Translations under genes and position numbers: made by a program
Shown here: one piece after another, positions 12,962-21,640 of the stretch
How positions within the stretch are numbered: the stretch's first letter is position 1
Layout: every line of letters starts with the position of its first letter
NCBI RefSeq assembly: GCF_024372725.1
Contig: NZ_VOUA01000022.1
Span: 1 to 62,591, forward strand
Direction of reading: 5' to 3'
DNA from: Methanosarcina sp. KYL-1
Lineage (GTDB): Archaea > Halobacteriota > Methanosarcinia > Methanosarcinales > Methanosarcinaceae
Length of the DNA stretch: 62,591 bases
Notes under the pieces: generated by a model
Database searches by the model: none
What the model saw: the letters and a program-made list of their open reading frames with translations, nothing else
What the model was told of the DNA's origin: nothing

Positions 12962-13405
12962 TTATCTTATTCCCGTGTCTATTGAAATGTCAAGGTAGGC
13001 TGTCTCTCCAGGGGAAATCCGGATTTCTGCGGGCAGGTCCGAAGTGCTGTCTATTCCCAGGGGTTTCATGTCTACAACATATGCCCCGGCTTCAAGCTCT
13101 GTTTTCATTTGCCCTTCCACATCCGGGCTGAGTTCTTTGACCAGGGTTTCCCGGTTTTCGGTATAGACCTGAATCGTTCTTGCGGAATAAATTTCGGCTT
13201 TTCGGGCTTCCGGGATTTCGCAGGGTTCTACGGGGCAGAGAGGGCCTATTGTTACATTTGCCTCCAGAAAGCCGGGTTTTTGAGTGTTTTCAGGCTGAGT
13301 TTCAAGGCAGCCGCCAAACAGGCAGAAGAAGGTCACGGCCGCAGCTACTGCAAGTCCGATATGCCAGTAATTTCTCCTTTTTTCATGCCGTAAATACGAC
13401 TTCAA
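12962..13405 (-). CDS. Lipoprotein with small beta-sandwich domain, unknown function
   Basis: 147 residues. After a charged start there is a hydrophobic segment ending in the lipobox-like FGGC, so the mature protein should be lipid-anchored outside the cell. The remainder (NVTIGPLCPVEPC ... AGAYVVDMKPLGIDS ... ISPGETAYLDISIDTGIR) resembles a widespread secreted beta-sandwich of unknown function. The TTG start at 13405 lies 23 bp inside the end of the IscU-type gene, so translation is probably coupled to it. Whether this protein has anything to do with Fe-S assembly is unknown. Confidence 0.65.
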   Translation of the reverse strand: MKSYLRHEKRRNYWHIGLAVAAAVTFFCLFGGCLETQPENTQKPGFLEANVTIGPLCPVEPCEIPEARKAEIYSARTIQVYTENRETLVKELSPDVEGQMKTELEAGAYVVDMKPLGIDSTSDLPAEIRISPGETAYLDISIDTGIR

Positions 13406-14018
13406 CCCTTTTCACGTCCCACAAAGCTCCCAGTTTTTCTACGATATCCTCCTTGATGGACGAAGCAAACTGGTGGTCTGACGGAAGATCCACAACAACC
13501 CTTACAACCCCGTCTTCCACAGTGGTTTTCAGGATAAGGTCCGTCCGGATGATGTCCAGGCCGGTGAGAGGGTTCATCACATGCTTGAGCCTCCTCCGGA
13601 CCACTTCTTCGGTAGTAGGCTCTTTCTCGGTTACAAGCCCGTGCTTTTCTTCATAGTCGCGGATTGCTGCCCGCAGGCCTTCTACGGCAAGCACTGAGCA
13701 GTGGGCCTTGATCGGAGGAAGCCCGCCCAGTTCTTCCGAGGCCTGTTTCCAGGTGATCTTTTTTGCTTCTTCCAGGGTCTTTCCCTTTGCAAGTTCCGTA
13801 ATCACCGACCCTGTGGCAATGTTTGAGGCACAGCCGTAGGATTCGAACTTTACGTCCTCGATAATCTTTGTTTCTGGTTCCACCTTGATATAAACAGCAA
13901 CCATGTCCCCGCATGCCGGACTGCCCTCCAGCCCTTTTCCATCGGGGTTCTCGATTTTTCCCACGTTCCGGGGGTTTCTGAAGTGCTCCAGCACTTTTTC
14001 GCTGTATGGAAACTTCAT
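13383..14018 (-). CDS. IscU-type Fe-S scaffold fused to a DUF59-like domain
   Basis: 211 residues. Residues 1-125 are an IscU/NifU N-terminal scaffold with all three cluster Cys: Cys36 in PACGD, Cys63 in YGCAS and Cys107 in KAHCS, plus Asp38. Residues ~135-211 (RRRLKHVMNPLTGLDIIRTDL ... VVDLP) look like a MIP18/DUF59 assembly domain, but the usual Cys is absent and SDHQF stands in its place. Known IscU proteins end near residue 130, so the fusion is unusual. The gene lies 150 bp after the IscS homologue on the same strand and overlaps the lipoprotein gene. It is probably a scaffold for [2Fe-2S] or [4Fe-4S] clusters. Confidence 0.88.
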   Translation of the reverse strand: MKFPYSEKVLEHFRNPRNVGKIENPDGKGLEGSPACGDMVAVYIKVEPETKIIEDVKFESYGCASNIATGSVITELAKGKTLEEAKKITWKQASEELGGLPPIKAHCSVLAVEGLRAAIRDYEEKHGLVTEKEPTTEEVVRRRLKHVMNPLTGLDIIRTDLILKTTVEDGVVRVVVDLPSDHQFASSIKEDIVEKLGALWDVKRVEVVFTA

Positions 14019-14171: not shown

Positions 14172-15338
14172 TCATTTCTCCATAAGGGGACTGATTTCCC
14201 GGAGCCTGGCAACCACTTCGCTGATGGCATCGATTGCTGCATCCGCGTCTTCCATACGGTTATAACGCCCGAAGCTAAAGCGCACCGAGCCGTGTGCCCG
14301 TTCATGGTCTCCTCCTATGCCCATGATTACGTGGCTGGCTTCAAGGGAGCGGGAGAAGCAGGCTGAACCCGTGCTCACGGCAAAGCCCCTCATATCCATG
14401 TGCAGGGTTATGGACTCTCCCTCAACGTAGTGGAAGGTCAGGTTTGCATTCTGAGGCAGGCGTTTCTCCAGGCTTCCGTTCAGGGTTACTTTCGGGATAT
14501 CGGAAAGTGCCCGGTCTATTACCCGGTCCCTCATCGCCTCCAGGTGCCGGGTCTCTTCCGGGGTCACCAGTTCCGCAGCCTTTGCAAACCCCACAGCCCC
14601 CGGGATGTTCTCTACCCCTGCCCGCCGGTTAAACTCCTGAAAACCCCCGTCCATGAATTTATTGATAGGAGTGTCTTTCCGGATGTAAAGAGCCCCTATC
14701 CCTCTCGGCCCATGGATGGTGTGGGCGGATAAAGTGACCAGGTCCACCGGCAGTTTTTTTACGTCAAGGGGCAGCCTTGTGAAACTGTGGGTGGCATCGG
14801 TGTGCAGGAGCACGTCCTTTTCTTCACAGATTTCGGATATGGCCTTCAGGTCCTGCACGGTTCCGATTTCCTGGTTGCCGTGCTGGATTGAGACAAGGAT
14901 GGTCTCTTCTGTAATTGTTTTTTCCAGCTTTCCCAGGTCTGCGAGCCCTTCTGCATCCACTTCCAGGAAAGTCACTTCAAAACCCTGCTTCGTGAGGGCT
15001 TTTGCCGTATTCAGCACCGGAAAGTCCTCGATCTTCGAGACGATAATATGTTTGCCTTTCTTTTCCTTCAGGGCCGAAGCCACCCCTTTAAGTGCAGTGT
15101 TGCTCGATTCCGTGGCCCCGGAGGTAAAGACGATTTCCCCCGATTCTGCACCGAGTTTTGCAGCTATGCCTTCCCGGGCCTTTTCGAGCCCTTCTTTTGC
15201 ATCGATGCCCATGGAGTAGCCGAACTCGGACGTCGCTACAGCGTACGTATCAAAAAAATACGGTTTCATGGCCTCAAGCACCCGTTCGTCCAGCCGGGTA
15301 CAGGCGGCATTGTCAAGATAGGTTATATTCTCAAATAT
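14172..15338 (-). CDS. Cysteine desulfurase (IscS/NifS) homologue lacking the PLP lysine
   Basis: 388 residues if translation starts at the ATA at 15338. Only from there is the conserved YLDNAA N terminus included; the first GTG (15281) would remove it. The fold is clearly IscS-like (SGATESSNTALKG, GPRGIGALY, STGSACFSRS with the active Cys at 327). Against E. coli IscS, however, PLP contacts are changed: Lys206 to Thr207 (SAHTIHG), His104 to Asp105, Gln183 to His184 and Asn155 to Gln156. Normal PLP-dependent desulfuration is therefore unlikely. As I recall, Archaeoglobus fulgidus IscS also lacks this lysine and acts as a partner contributing a Cys ligand to IscU. It heads the iscU-lipoprotein genes. 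Confidence 0.88.
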   Translation of the reverse strand: MFENITYLDNAACTRLDERVLEAMKPYFFDTYAVATSEFGYSMGIDAKEGLEKAREGIAAKLGAESGEIVFTSGATESSNTALKGVASALKEKKGKHIIVSKIEDFPVLNTAKALTKQGFEVTFLEVDAEGLADLGKLEKTITEETILVSIQHGNQEIGTVQDLKAISEICEEKDVLLHTDATHSFTRLPLDVKKLPVDLVTLSAHTIHGPRGIGALYIRKDTPINKFMDGGFQEFNRRAGVENIPGAVGFAKAAELVTPEETRHLEAMRDRVIDRALSDIPKVTLNGSLEKRLPQNANLTFHYVEGESITLHMDMRGFAVSTGSACFSRSLEASHVIMGIGGDHERAHGSVRFSFGRYNRMEDADAAIDAISEVVARLREISPLMEK

Positions 15339-15352
15339 TTTCTCCCCCTCCC
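15339..15352 (-). promoter_or_regulatory. Strong ribosome binding site deciding the non-ATG start of the IscS homologue
   Basis: On the minus strand GGGAGGGGG (15352-15344) lies 5 bases before an in-frame ATA (15338-15336). No ATG, GTG or TTG occurs in frame between the upstream stop and the conserved N-terminal motif. Confidence 0.6.
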
Positions 15353-15490: not shown

Positions 15491-15916
15491 TCAGATAAAG
15501 AGCGTAATGTTTGCGTCCCTTGCCTCATGGATATACGAACCCACGGCTCCCCATTCATCAACCCATTCCGTCCGAAGCTCTTCTTTCTTTATGCCCATGA
15601 TTTCCATGGTCATTTCACAGGCTATGATCTTTCCTCCCAGCTCTTTGAAGTCGTTCATGAGCCTTTCAAGGGATGCTACGTTAGCTTTGTCCATCCTCTT
15701 TTTGACCATCCACTTCCCCAGGCCCAGCATGTGCATCTTGGAAAGCGGCCCCTTTTCAAGCCCCCCTTTCTTCAGCCTCATGAGCCCCCAGAAGGTAAAG
15801 TATATGGAGGCTTCCATACCCATTGCCAGGGCTCCGTTCCCGATTATAAGCGCGCTGTACACTTTGTCCATATCTCCGCTGTGCAGGACAATAACTGCTT
15901 TTTCCCCCATTTTCAC
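15491..15916 (-). CDS. DsrE/DsrF-like family protein
   Basis: 141 residues. It has the DsrE-like alpha/beta start (KAVIVLHSGDMDKVYSALIIGNGALAMGMEASIYFTFWG) and a single conserved Cys in IIACEMTMEIMGIK (about residue 99), the position that carries persulfide in DsrE-type sulfur carriers. The middle is a Met/Lys-rich segment (KMHMLGLGKWMVKKRM) typical of the archaeal branch. It lies 13 bp after the TusA-like gene on the same strand. TusA and DsrE-like proteins are known partners in sulfur relay, so a persulfide-transfer role is likely. Confidence 0.85.
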   Translation of the reverse strand: MKMGEKAVIVLHSGDMDKVYSALIIGNGALAMGMEASIYFTFWGLMRLKKGGLEKGPLSKMHMLGLGKWMVKKRMDKANVASLERLMNDFKELGGKIIACEMTMEIMGIKKEELRTEWVDEWGAVGSYIHEARDANITLFI

Positions 15917-15929
15917 TCCCTATCCGGAT

Positions 15930-16157
15930 TTACCTCCGGATCTTTATCTCCCACTCTTTCCCTTCTTTTTTGTCTTCTATCCCGAGAACTTCGAGTCCCA
16001 TTGCCTCGCAGGCCATGGGTATTTCTTTTTTGGATGCGGGATGCGTGCCTTTCACAATTACAAGGTCCCCGGGAGAGGCTTTCTTAAGTGCTTTTCTGCA
16101 CTCTACCAGCGGGACGGGGCAGGTCTCCCCTCGAACGTCTATTTCCATTTCTGCCAC
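15930..16157 (-). CDS. TusA/SirA-like sulfur carrier
   Basis: 75 residues, the full length of the family. The CPxP motif is present as GETCPVPLVECRKAL (Cys at about residue 13), the site that carries persulfide in TusA. VIVKGTHPASKKEIPMACEAMG covers the second conserved segment. It starts the minus-strand tusA-dsrE pair, upstream of the IscS/IscU genes. It probably moves sulfur between the DsrE-like protein and an acceptor such as a thiolation or Fe-S assembly enzyme. Confidence 0.92.
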   Translation of the reverse strand: MAEMEIDVRGETCPVPLVECRKALKKASPGDLVIVKGTHPASKKEIPMACEAMGLEVLGIEDKKEGKEWEIKIRR

Positions 16158-16285: not shown

Positions 16286-16705
16286 TCAAAGGGCTTTCCT
16301 TATTTTCTCTGCAGTCCCTTCAAGGTTTGCGGTATCGGTTTCAGTCCAGACGATTGACTTTATCCCTCTTCCTCCATCTCCCTTTTTCCTGGGAATCACG
16401 TGGACATGGACATGGGGGACTTCCTGGCCGGCGACCTCCCCGTTGTTAATGCCTATGTTCGATCCCTCTGCCGAAAAGGCTTTTTCAACGGCAGCAGTAA
16501 TTTTCCTTGCGGCTTCGAAGAGTGTGGTGACGTCTTCTGCTCTCATGTCCGTGAAATTCCCAAAATGTTTTTTCGGAGCCACCAGCGTGTGCCCTTCGCT
16601 TGCCGGGTAGATGTCAAGAAATGCATACACGGAATCGTCTTCATATACCCTGTACGAAGGGATTTTCCCTGATACGATCTTGCAAAAAAGGCAGTCTTCT
16701 GTCAT
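16286..16705 (-). CDS. HIT family nucleotide hydrolase/transferase
   Basis: About 139 residues from Met at 16705; the frame also allows 16720. The histidine triad is seen as VPHVHVHVIPR (about residues 90-100), and the N-terminal CLFCKIVSGKIPS with paired Cys is typical of Hint-type proteins, which may bind zinc there. Family members hydrolyse AMP-lysine or nucleoside phosphoramidates; the exact substrate is unknown. It stands alone between the sulfur island and the SemiSWEET gene. Confidence 0.92.
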   Translation of the reverse strand: MTEDCLFCKIVSGKIPSYRVYEDDSVYAFLDIYPASEGHTLVAPKKHFGNFTDMRAEDVTTLFEAARKITAAVEKAFSAEGSNIGINNGEVAGQEVPHVHVHVIPRKKGDGGRGIKSIVWTETDTANLEGTAEKIRKAL

Positions 16706-16861
16706 AAACGGCATCCCCATAAATGTTTATGCTTTACGCTTATATTAGAATTCGTTTCTTACACAAGTTTTATCTGGAATCCGGGTATCTGCTTTCGCGG
16801 AAAAATCCGGAATGCTATTTCTTCATCGTTTGGAAAATGGATCGGGGAGGATGATACTTGC

Positions 16862-18343: not shown

Positions 18344-21300
18344 TCATTTCCTTATCTTCATAACTAAATATTCAGAGAGAATCAGGAAAATAGGCAGGGA
18401 AATTAACATCATGATTTTACTTATTCCCCCCGTTTTTCCCTCCTCATTACTTTCTTCTTTTTCCCCGCTTCCATTAATGACCCCTGATTTTCCTGACTTA
18501 TTCAGGCTACCGAGAGCTCCGTGGAGTTCGTCGTTTTCGACCAGGATCTCCTCTTCGGCTGTTTCCTCTTCAATCGTTTCCTCTTTTCCTGTGTATTCAG
18601 CTATTGCAAAGGAGGAATAGCCGGGAGTACTGGATTTGAAATAGGTACATTGTTTGTCTTCACCTACTTTTTCGGTATACAGGGGCTCCCATTTTTTGTC
18701 GTATCTCAGCATGCTGATCAGGGATTCGTTAATATCGTTATTTTCTATCCAGGCTTTCTCAACCTTGAACTCGATGTAGCCGTTCTCAAGAACTTCCGGC
18801 ATCCCAGCTCCACTATCTCCTACCCAGATGTTTACGTTTTTGTACACTTTTCCCGGCGCGGGAATCGAAGCCAGAGTGGTTTTTCCTTTGAGCACTTCTG
18901 CTATGGTTGTCGTTCTCTTAAAACTCCTCTTTGGGTCGAATTCGATGCAGGTAATGCAGGTTGCGTTTTCCACGAAATCAAACCTTACGTGATATCCGTA
19001 AATGATATATCTTGTTGAAAGTTCCTTGACCTGGACGTTTTTAGCAGGTTCCTTTGAACCTCCTCCCGAAACGCTGGGGGGTTTTGGCTTTTTCTTGCTA
19101 CCTCCGCTCCCAGAAGAAGCCACTTTCTTGGAAACCGTCACCGTTCTTTTTATTTCGTTGTTTGTTTCCCTGCTTTCAAAAACCGCATTTTCGGAATCCA
19201 CAACAACTCTTACTTCGAAATTTCCTTCCTTCTCCGGAATCCAGGTAAAAGTTCCTGTTGAGGTCTCACTCCCTGAAAGTGCCGGTACAGATAGGTTTCC
19301 TTCATATTCCCCAGCTATATAGTATTCAAGGTCTGCGGGTCCCGAGGTTACAGATCCCTCATTCTTTACGGTTACAGTGTACTCCACACTTTCTTCGGGT
19401 TTTGGATTTTGAGGTTTCCATGTAAGTGTTTCTATAATAAGGTCCGGGGACTCTTCAGCTTCGGCTTTCACGGTCACGTTCCTTACGATTTCATTATTCG
19501 CCTCATTGCTTTCAGGTACGTCATTTCCTGAATCTGCGACCACCCTTATCTCAATTTCTCCCTCATTCTCAGGAATCAGGGAAAATTCAGCTTTCACATC
19601 CTTCCCTGGTAAAAGGGCCGGTATGGAAATTTCTTCTCCGGAAGTTCCGTCGATATAGTACATTGCAGTGCTGCTTTGGGCGGGCTCCGTTCCCAGGTTC
19701 CTTACTGTCAGAGCAAAGTTTAAGGTTTTTCCGGGTTCAGCCTCAACCGGCTCCCAGGACAGTTCTTCGATTACAAGGTCTGAAGATGCTTGTTCCTCTA
19801 CTACTATTATTGTCCCGGCCTTTTCGTTGTTTCCTTCATTGCTTTCAAAAACCCTGTCCTCGGGATCTACCCTGGCCCGGATCTCTTCTGTTCCTCCCTT
19901 TTCCGGGGTCCATGAAACTGAAATTGAGGTTTCCGATCCAGGATCCAGTTCTCTTACTTCTCTTTCCCCTTCAGTTCCGCCAACCTCATACTCCAGGTTC
20001 GTTTCTCCCGACCTCTCCGTTCCCAGGTTCCTTACTGTTATGGTGATGCTTATTGCTTCTCCGGGCTTCGAAATGAACGGCTCCCAGGAAAGATCTTCTA
20101 TTACAAGGTCTGAAGATGCTTGTTCCTCTACTACTGTTATTGTCCCTGTCTTTTCGTTGTTTCCTTCATTGCTTTCAAAAACCCGGTCATTGGGGTCTAC
20201 CCTGGCCCGGATCTCTTCTGTTCCTCCTGTCCCGGGGGTCCATGAAACTGAAATTGAGGTCTCCGAACCAGGATCCAGTTCTCTTACTTCTCTTTCCCCT
20301 TCAGTTCCGCCTACCTCGTATTCCAGGTCCGTTTCTCCCGACCTCTCGGTTCCCAGGTTCCTTACTGTTATGGTGATGCTTACTGTCTCTCCCTGGTCCG
20401 GGACAACCGGTTCCCATGAAATATTTTCGATTACAAGGTCCGGAAATGTCTTTTTTTCTACTATTATTGATCCGGTTTCTTCGTTGTTCCCTTCATCACT
20501 TTCAAAAACCAGATCCTTGGGATCTACCCTGGCCCGGATCTCCGCCGTCCCTCCTGTTTCCGGGGTCCATGAAAATGAAATTGAGGTCTCCGAATCAGGA
20601 TCCAGTTCTCTTACTTCTCTTTCCCCTTCAGTTCCGCCTACCTCGTACTCCAGGTCCGTTTCTCCCGACCTTTCCGTTCCCTGGTTCTTTACTGTTACAG
20701 TGATGCTTACTGTCTCTTCCGGTTCAGGATTTTCCGGCTGCCAGGTGATTTTTTCTATTACCAGGTCCGGAGATTTCTGGTTATACACGTTTACGAACTC
20801 TATTTTTTCATTGTTCCATTCATTACTTTCATAAACAAGATTATCGGGATCTACCTCTACCCCTATCATCACCGTTTCTTCTCTTTTCGGAATCCAGGGA
20901 AATGACATGGAAATACTTGATTCTGGAGGTATTTCAGGTACTTTTTCCTCTCCTTTCTCAGTTCCGTCAATACCACTGATATAGTAAACCAGATCCGTAC
21001 TTGCCGACTTTTCTTTTCCCTCATTCTTAACTATCACTTCAATATTTGCTGCCTTTTCTGGTTCCGGATTGGCCGGTTCGCAGGAAATCGTTTCGACTAC
21101 AAGGTCTGGATCTCCCCCATTTTTTGAAGTTATGAAGTATGTCTCTTCATTATTTTCTTCATCACTTTCAATAACGGACTCTTCGGTGTCCGCCTGTACC
21201 TTTATTTCCACCGTTCCTTCGGTTTCCGGAACCACTGTAAATGATATTGAATCACTCGATCCCGGGTGGAGTCCCCGTATCTCCTCATCCCCTGCGTAAT

Positions 21301-21640
21301 TTCCATCTCCATAATATTCAAGGCCCGATAAACCCCACACCTGTATATCGTCCCCGCTTATGAAGCACGCGAGATTAGTCCTTCCCGACCTTCTTATTCC
21401 CTGGTTCTTTACCGTTACAGTGACCCTCACCTGTTCTCCTGGTTCAGGTTCGACCGGTTCACAGGAAACCGATTCGATTACCAGGTCCGGGAGTGCTTCA
21501 TTGTCGGATGAATTTCCTCCGTTTATGGGAGATTCATCCTCCTCTCCTGCAGATGCTGCCCCCAATATAATTACAAGAAATACAAGAGTTATCAGTGATA
21601 CGGCTGTAAATGGCTAAAAATAAGTGGCCTTAATTTTCAT
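18344..21640 (-). CDS. Seven-repeat CARDB surface protein with PGF-pre-PGF domain; in-frame TAG in the signal peptide
   Basis: From the ATG at 21640 the frame reads MKIKATYF, then TAG (21616-21614), then 17 codons to the TTG at 21565 and on without a stop to 18344: about 1098 residues if TAG is read. Only this longer form has a full signal peptide: Lys near the start, then SLITLVFLVIILGAASAG. Seven CARDB beta-sandwich repeats of ~108 residues each begin (P/S)DL(V/I)(I/V)E. They are followed by a basic Ser/Gly/Lys/Pro linker, a PGF-pre-PGF domain (STRYIIYGYHVRFDF ... SSFAIAEY) and an acidic tail. The C-terminal membrane helix and basic end anchor it, although no PGF tripeptide is present. Without TAG readthrough, a TTG start would give a truncated signal. 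Confidence 0.85.
19775..20770 (-). repeat. Three near-identical CARDB-coding repeats
   Basis: The block CTACCCTGGCCCGG and its surroundings recur at 19867, 20197 and 20524 (periods of 330 and 327 bp) with high DNA identity. The other CARDB units in the same gene are much more diverged. Confidence 0.85.

Follow-up and report, generated by a model that had tools for sequence, protein, structure and literature searches.

Iron-sulfur (Fe-S) cluster assembly is usually thought to begin with sulfur taken from cysteine. The window analyzed here, a stretch of 62,591 nucleotides from Methanosarcina sp. KYL-1 (contig NZ_VOUA01000022.1), encodes an IscS homolog without the Schiff-base lysine (positions 14172-15338, minus strand), and raises the question of what such a protein contributes to Fe-S cluster assembly.

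IscS fold and replaced PLP contacts

The plus strand of the interval 14172-15338 is interrupted by stop codons and the reading frame lies on the minus strand, where translation and Pfam/NCBIfam matches define a gene of 388 codons plus stop, here called iscS1. A chance misreading of the frame or a wrong alignment is out, since both the minus-strand translation and the alignment with E. coli IscS hold. The product contains a fold type I aminotransferase class V domain: Pfam Aminotran_5 (PF00266) matches residues 6-367 (E 7.5e-73, 246 bits against a cut-off of 21.5), and the AlphaFold2 model (pLDDT 93.6, pTM 0.92) overlays E. coli IscS with a Z of 54.6 and an rmsd of 1.3 A over 377 residues. An earlier note on this locus had expected the IscS fold to be kept, and the model agrees, though it speaks for the fold alone because the input alignment of the predictor contained IscS relatives. 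The nearest solved structures by sequence are the A. fulgidus IscS chains, with 45-46% identity to IscS1 in the structural alignment. IscS1 scores under the curated equivalog cut-offs of both NifS (TIGR03402, 433 against 530.75 bits) and IscS (TIGR02006, 379 against 643.2 bits).

Taking E. coli IscS from NC_000913 as the reference, we find that several residues that serve as PLP contacts in E. coli IscS are replaced. The Schiff-base Lys206 is Thr207 (14718-14720), the ring-stacking His104 is Asp105 (15024-15026), Asn155 is Gln156 (14871-14873), Gln183 is His184 (14787-14789) and the phosphate contact Thr243* is Val242 (14613-14615), all on the minus strand. Retained are T76, D180, S203 and H205 (T76, D181, S204 and H206 in IscS1), the IscU-docking tail LRxxSPL, and Cys327 (14358-14360, minus strand), the counterpart of the persulfide Cys328, which in the model lies in the block of lowest confidence (residues 321-330), consistent with a persulfide cysteine on a mobile loop. 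The alignment thereby confirms the changes to Thr207, Asp105, His184 and Gln156 and the kept cysteine that had been read by eye in the earlier note.

Given these pocket replacements, it is very unlikely that IscS1 works as an ordinary cysteine desulfurase, as had been proposed from the same residues, and it presumably has no desulfurase activity. The accompanying proposal of a PLP-free scaffold is less secure: a figure legend shows PLP in the A. fulgidus IscS structure 4EB5 (PMC9769115), a protein that also lacks the lysine, so that a missing lysine is no proof of missing PLP. As more PLP contacts are lost in the variant with Thr at this position (hereafter the Thr type), the claim is more plausible for IscS1, which may be free of PLP.

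Conservation and selection in the Methanosarcinaceae

An IscS1 ortholog at >=70% identity is carried by 83 of the 111 genomes of the family, with next best matches at <=50%; among the matches listed from 392 genomes of the phylum, none outside the family exceeds 50% identity. The four pocket replacements are fixed in all Methanosarcinaceae orthologs examined (51-52 of 52): Thr207, Gln156 and His184 each occur in 52/52 and Asp105 in 51/51, with one gap. Asp181 is likewise present in 52/52 and Cys327 in the 50/50 orthologs that have a residue there (two gaps), and the position of Val242 is occupied by V (36), L (13) or I (3). Lysine-type IscS sequences have Lys at the Schiff-base position in 154/154 cases. 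One Thr-type sequence from another phylum (L176) is omitted from the Thr-type residue counts for the pocket, TusA and the neighbor motifs. Thus the PLP-contact losses that led the earlier note to call the site "erased" are real, but the word does not fit well, as other residues have taken over in the pocket and have stayed unchanged since.

Comparison of the window iscS1 with 8 orthologs gave dN/dS values of 0.040-0.077 for the 6 pairs with unsaturated dS, similar to those of lysine-bearing paralogs (0.044-0.072, 4 pairs), and iscS1 is therefore under the same strong selection as these paralogs. Chance or decay is excluded as the cause of the replacements. A non-functional relic of a duplicated desulfurase, a possibility named by Deere 2020 (PMC7585200), would be in keeping with a partial ortholog that carries an in-frame TGA (G076), and with the M. 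acetivorans proteome as described in that paper, in which IscS2 and IscU2 are the only ones consistently found, though its table marks IscS1 as detected. Set against this are the dN/dS values, the number of genomes with an ortholog, an operon kept across genera, and the 11 genomes of one genus (g7) in which IscS1 is the sole close IscS. On the dN/dS values and the residue conservation we reject IscS1 as a relic or pseudogene, a reading to which we give hardly any weight.

The conserved pocket also bears on whether IscS1 is still an enzyme. A rebuilt pocket (Asp105, Gln156, Asp181, His184, His206 and Thr207) might hold PLP with no Schiff base, or some other ligand, and catalyze another reaction, perhaps on a persulfide; alternatively, it might bind a metal. 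The invariance of the replaced residues, the retention of T76, D181, S204 and H206, and the PLP drawn in 4EB5 would all suit such an enzyme. However, the stacking His, the Asn, the Gln, the Lys and the phosphate-contact Thr are all replaced together, and the invariance of the four replaced sites is just moderately unusual because 47% of the family columns are >=98% conserved, so that conservation of the pocket may merely keep the fold. We consider a surviving enzymatic activity improbable.

Translation start of iscS1

There is no in-frame ATG, GTG or TTG before the conserved N-terminal motif of IscS1, and the first codon is ATA (15336-15338, minus strand). This ATA is found at the start position in 29/29 genes of the genus of the window and one sister genus; the single outgroup in the comparison has ATG, and other genera have ATG, GTG or, once, ATT. 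It is preceded by the Shine-Dalgarno-like sequence GGGAGGGGG (15344-15352, minus strand), and purine-rich G runs lie at the same place in orthologs. Within the same genes, where ATA, ATC and ATT make up 33, 35 and 33% of the Ile codons, 10/10 other columns that are always Ile show synonymous change. That the start ATA is invariant while these columns vary indicates initiation at AUA, and translation of iscS1 likely begins at this non-standard start, which could hold IscS1 levels low. A literature search on AUA starts in archaea gave nothing relevant.

Two other starts were considered. The GTG at 15281 was rejected, as it would remove the conserved YLDN motif. Codon 5, which is ATG in many orthologs and fits the residue numbering of M. 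acetivorans IscS1 in PMC7585200, is an unlikely start, being farther from the G-rich stretch and reading ATA or GTA in the window and several orthologs. Annotation of iscS1 from codon 5 would drop four residues.

Gene cluster of iscS1

The gene lies in the order tusA-dsrE2-iscS1-iscU(DUF59), all on the minus strand, and this order is held through most of the Methanosarcinaceae. The tusA gene (15930-16157, minus strand; PF01206, E 2.4e-21) encodes a sulfur carrier with a CPVP motif and is the one TusA match in the whole genome; a second genome (G075) likewise has a single match, in the same cluster. Between tusA and iscS1 lies a gene for a DsrE2-like sulfur carrier (15491-15916, minus strand; PF13686, E 8.3e-37). 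The sulfur-carrier motifs are conserved next to Thr-type IscS, with CPxP in 45/45 TusA and the motif Cys in 44/44 DsrE2 sequences. Downstream, iscU1 (13383-14018, minus strand) encodes an IscU scaffold domain (NifU_N, E 3e-44) with a C-terminal DUF59/MIP18 part (FeS_assembly_P, 2.7e-13; residues 137-207, 13398-13610, minus strand), and the cluster-site motifs ACGD, YGCAS and HCS of IscU are present in 50/50 sequences. The fusion, which joins the scaffold to a possible cluster-delivery domain, is kept in Thr-type clusters. With >=70% identity, Thr at the lysine position, tusA-dsrE2 upstream and iscU-DUF59 downstream, the window gene belongs to the group of M. acetivorans IscS1 (MA0808), which is evidently its ortholog.

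Other genes nearby include a 147-aa open reading frame (12962-13405, minus strand) that overlaps the end of iscU, is lipoprotein-like, has no Pfam match and resembles frames in two other loci (L008 and L011), and a HIT-family gene (16286-16720, minus strand) upstream of tusA, which keeps this position in many Methanosarcina loci. Farther away, 18344-21565 (minus strand) encodes a 1073-aa protein with many repeats of about 110 residues (DLVIE..W.P..P.PGE), probably a cell-surface protein.

Lysine loss and tusA/dsrE neighbors

For a census of neighbors, 285 loci were picked by IscS similarity, except for about 20 from a TusA search and the E. coli stretch, and IscS frames of >=250 aa and >150 bits were counted; one locus (L136, a repeat of L075) was omitted and identical cores were merged, taking 282 sequences to 267. 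Sorted by the residue at the lysine position, these comprise 154 Lys, 57 Asp, 53 Thr, 2 Leu and 1 Gln types. A tusA and/or dsrE gene is located on the same strand no more than 2.5 kb from 103/113 lysine-less vs 0/154 lysine-bearing copies, figures in which the DsrE counts are lower bounds, as the DsrE model gave no match in the tusBCD stretch of E. coli; the TusA model detects E. coli TusA at 4.4e-17. A Fisher p for this contrast takes no account of relatedness, and we do not count it as evidence. By type, such neighbors accompany 46/53 Thr, 56/57 Asp, 1/1 Gln and 0/2 Leu copies.

Of the ten exceptions, two are short loci (L030 and L033) for which a genome search puts TusA about 2 kb upstream, one ends with the contig (L053), and four (L036, L038, L044 and L045) are from genus g7, where tusA is not beside iscS1 and TusA is found elsewhere in 10/11 genomes. 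The others are one Asp type (L270) and the two Leu types, both from Rokubacteria. The Rokubacteria copies (L168:3953-5203 and L195:2208-3497) carry Leu at the lysine position and Gln in place of the stacking His, and adjoin iscU; neither tusA nor dsrE was found beside these two, and they are possibly another non-desulfurase IscS.

In 19/19 genomes with both kinds of IscS, tusA/dsrE neighbors occur solely at the lysine-less copy. Among the matches listed from other phyla (80 named loci), neighbors are found at 7/9 lysine-less and 0/81 lysine-bearing copies; among these listed matches, six Asp types with TusA come from Thorarchaeota, Bathyarchaeota, an actinobacterial MAG, ANME-2, Methanomethyliaceae and Lokiarchaeia, and there is one further Thr type with TusA (L176). 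Judged by gene order, a partnership of TusA/DsrE with IscS1 is well supported, in the sense of co-location, not of contact.

Origin of lysine loss

How many independent events underlie this association depends on the history of the lysine loss. A tree was built from rows with <80% mutual identity (22/50 Thr, 18/19 Asp, 1 Gln and 39/65 Lys types) after removal of the trait columns. The Thr type forms one clade of 22 rows (support 100/100), with the single Gln type as its sister (100/96), and the Asp type, including A. fulgidus IscS, forms another clade of 18 rows (100/99) among lysine types. This agrees with the suggestion that the Thr variant may be a separate branch. A wider tree with a weak backbone (47 rows after thinning, with 7/24 thinned Lys rows at <=420 bits removed) has four changes.

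Two or more losses of the lysine are favored; a single clade of all lysine-less rows has an AU p of 0.15, and as the test does not reject a single origin, we do not claim convergence. Under a single origin of lysine-less IscS, the association with tusA/dsrE reduces to few independent events (2 independent pairs), and two independent contrasts cannot reach significance. The make of TusA also differs between the types: Asp45 and Asp51, described as conserved in TusA (PMC2854127), are retained in Asp-type TusA, and are replaced by His and Glu, respectively, in 45/45 Thr-type sequences, the chemistry of which may differ. This difference would fit separate recruitment of TusA in the two types.

A proposed sulfur relay

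E. coli IscS has separate docking sites for TusA and IscU, which can each reach the Cys328 loop but not both at once, and TusA is held by salt bridges between its R27 and R31 and E49 and D52 of IscS (PMC2854127). The Thr-type pair keeps these residues, with R27 in 45/45 and K/R31 in 45/45 TusA sequences, and E49 in 51/51 and E52 in 43/52 IscS sequences. In the Asp type (n=50) the charge pairs are partly kept: IscS 49 with TusA 31 attract in 14 and repel in 8 cases, and IscS 52 with TusA 27 attract in 39. At first TusA31 and IscS49 seemed to have exchanged charges in the Asp type, which this count did not uphold.

Our preferred explanation, to which we assign a probability of roughly 0.55, is that IscS1 is a conserved non-desulfurase IscS that serves as docking platform and persulfide relay in a TusA-DsrE2-IscS1-IscU1 assembly line. 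If IscS1 is unable to form a persulfide from cysteine, a relay from TusA via Cys327 to IscU1 is the simplest use of the parts that are kept, and the neighboring tusA, dsrE2 and iscU-DUF59 genes suggest such a relay rather than a scaffold alone. Sulfane sulfur would be made elsewhere from sulfide or polysulfide and carried by DsrE2 and TusA. The dimeric IscS1 would act as the docking platform, with TusA at the site it occupies in E. coli, and TusA would load Cys327, the reverse of the direction in E. coli. The mobile Cys327 loop would then swing to IscU1 and deliver the sulfur; by analogy with the proposal for A. fulgidus, Cys327 may in addition coordinate the growing cluster on IscU1. The fused DUF59 may help to pass the cluster on. 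In this scheme the TusA-IscS1 contact, the direction of sulfur flow, the sulfur source and the role of DUF59 are inferred.

The cluster-ligand role could also be the whole of it: IscS1 would supply just Cys327 as the fourth cluster ligand on IscU1, the sulfur would come from free sulfide, and TusA and DsrE2 would belong to another pathway. Deere 2020 (PMC7585200) carried this role over to IscS1 from the proposal made for A. fulgidus. The ligand role agrees with the same kind of lysine loss and the same IscU partner in both proteins and with Fe-S assembly fed by sulfide alone in M. maripaludis (PMC10500019). It leaves unexplained why tusA/dsrE genes sit at lysine-less copies and at none of the lysine-bearing ones, and why the Thr type keeps the TusA docking residues; we regard it as a rather unlikely, if serious, alternative.

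A relay through IscS1 would have a place in the physiology of Methanosarcina. M. acetivorans without sufCB retains growth and Fe-S assembly, which led the authors to raise the question of the remaining factors (PMC10500019); it also grows without IscSU2, its one proven desulfurase/scaffold pair, which is non-essential (PMC7585200). As neither SufBC nor IscSU2 is essential, another Fe-S route must exist, for which the iscS1 cluster is a candidate. More tentatively, and with the odds somewhat against the proposal in its full breadth, an ISC system independent of desulfurase, in which TusA, in some cases together with DsrE, passes sulfur to a lysine-less IscS that works with IscU, may be widespread in archaea and some bacteria, may have arisen at least twice at the loss of the lysine, and may be the missing sulfide-fed Fe-S route of Methanosarcina. 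If true, a TusA-fed lysine-less IscS-IscU would answer how the many Fe-S proteins of M. acetivorans get their sulfur, the puzzling A. fulgidus IscS structures would gain a physiological meaning, and a sulfur relay would be seen to run in reverse.

Comparison with known systems

The closest described protein is M. acetivorans IscS1 (MA0808), reported by Deere 2020 as lysine-less and likened to A. fulgidus IscS (PMC7585200). Like the window protein it lacks PLP-binding residues including the lysine, keeps STGSACFS and is followed by a 24-kDa IscU; the recombinant protein gave inclusion bodies (PMC7585200). The paper noted the gene clustering and called the neighbors genes of unknown function, and in the portions of its text available to us there is nothing for IscS1 on TusA, DsrE, family-wide fixation or the start codon (PMC7585200). 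Literature searches, whose reach did not extend to the original A. fulgidus papers or the paper on MIS/SMS evolution, found no publication on TusA or DsrE beside lysine-less IscS. As far as these searches show, the link of TusA/DsrE with lysine loss, the fixed set of replacements and the conserved ATA start are new.

The earlier note had mentioned a lysine-less IscS from A. fulgidus; this is correct, and for M. acetivorans IscS1, too, the loss is published (PMC7585200). A. fulgidus IscS (4eb5, 4eb7, 4hvk, 4r5f) resembles IscS1 in the lost lysine, the kept Cys loop and the adjoining IscU, and both IscS1 and A. fulgidus-type IscS share a gene cluster with tusA/dsrE and iscU. Unlike IscS1, it has Asp rather than Thr, and keeps the stacking His and, in the PDB protein, the Asn. 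Asp-type IscS has D at the lysine position (57/57), N before it (56/57) and A for Gln183 (55/57), where the window protein has T, H and H, respectively. The PDB protein corresponds to L132 (99.7% identical), which lies behind a dsrE frame without the usual N-terminus; a second A. fulgidus copy (L103) lies behind tusA-dsrE. Beyond the Asp copies, six genomes of its family, including A. fulgidus, have just one partial match at 27% identity.

The SMS system of methanogens (SmsCB/SufBC) consists of scaffold proteins unrelated to those of the iscS1 cluster, and "TusA" has 0 occurrences in the text of PMC12192291; it shares with our proposal a sulfide-fed Fe-S assembly without cysteine desulfurase (PMC12192291). 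E. coli IscS has in common with IscS1 the fold, the Cys loop, the IscU docking site and, for the Thr type, the TusA docking site. In contrast, E. coli IscS works with PLP and passes sulfur on to TusA, whereas IscS1 is proposed to receive its sulfur from TusA.
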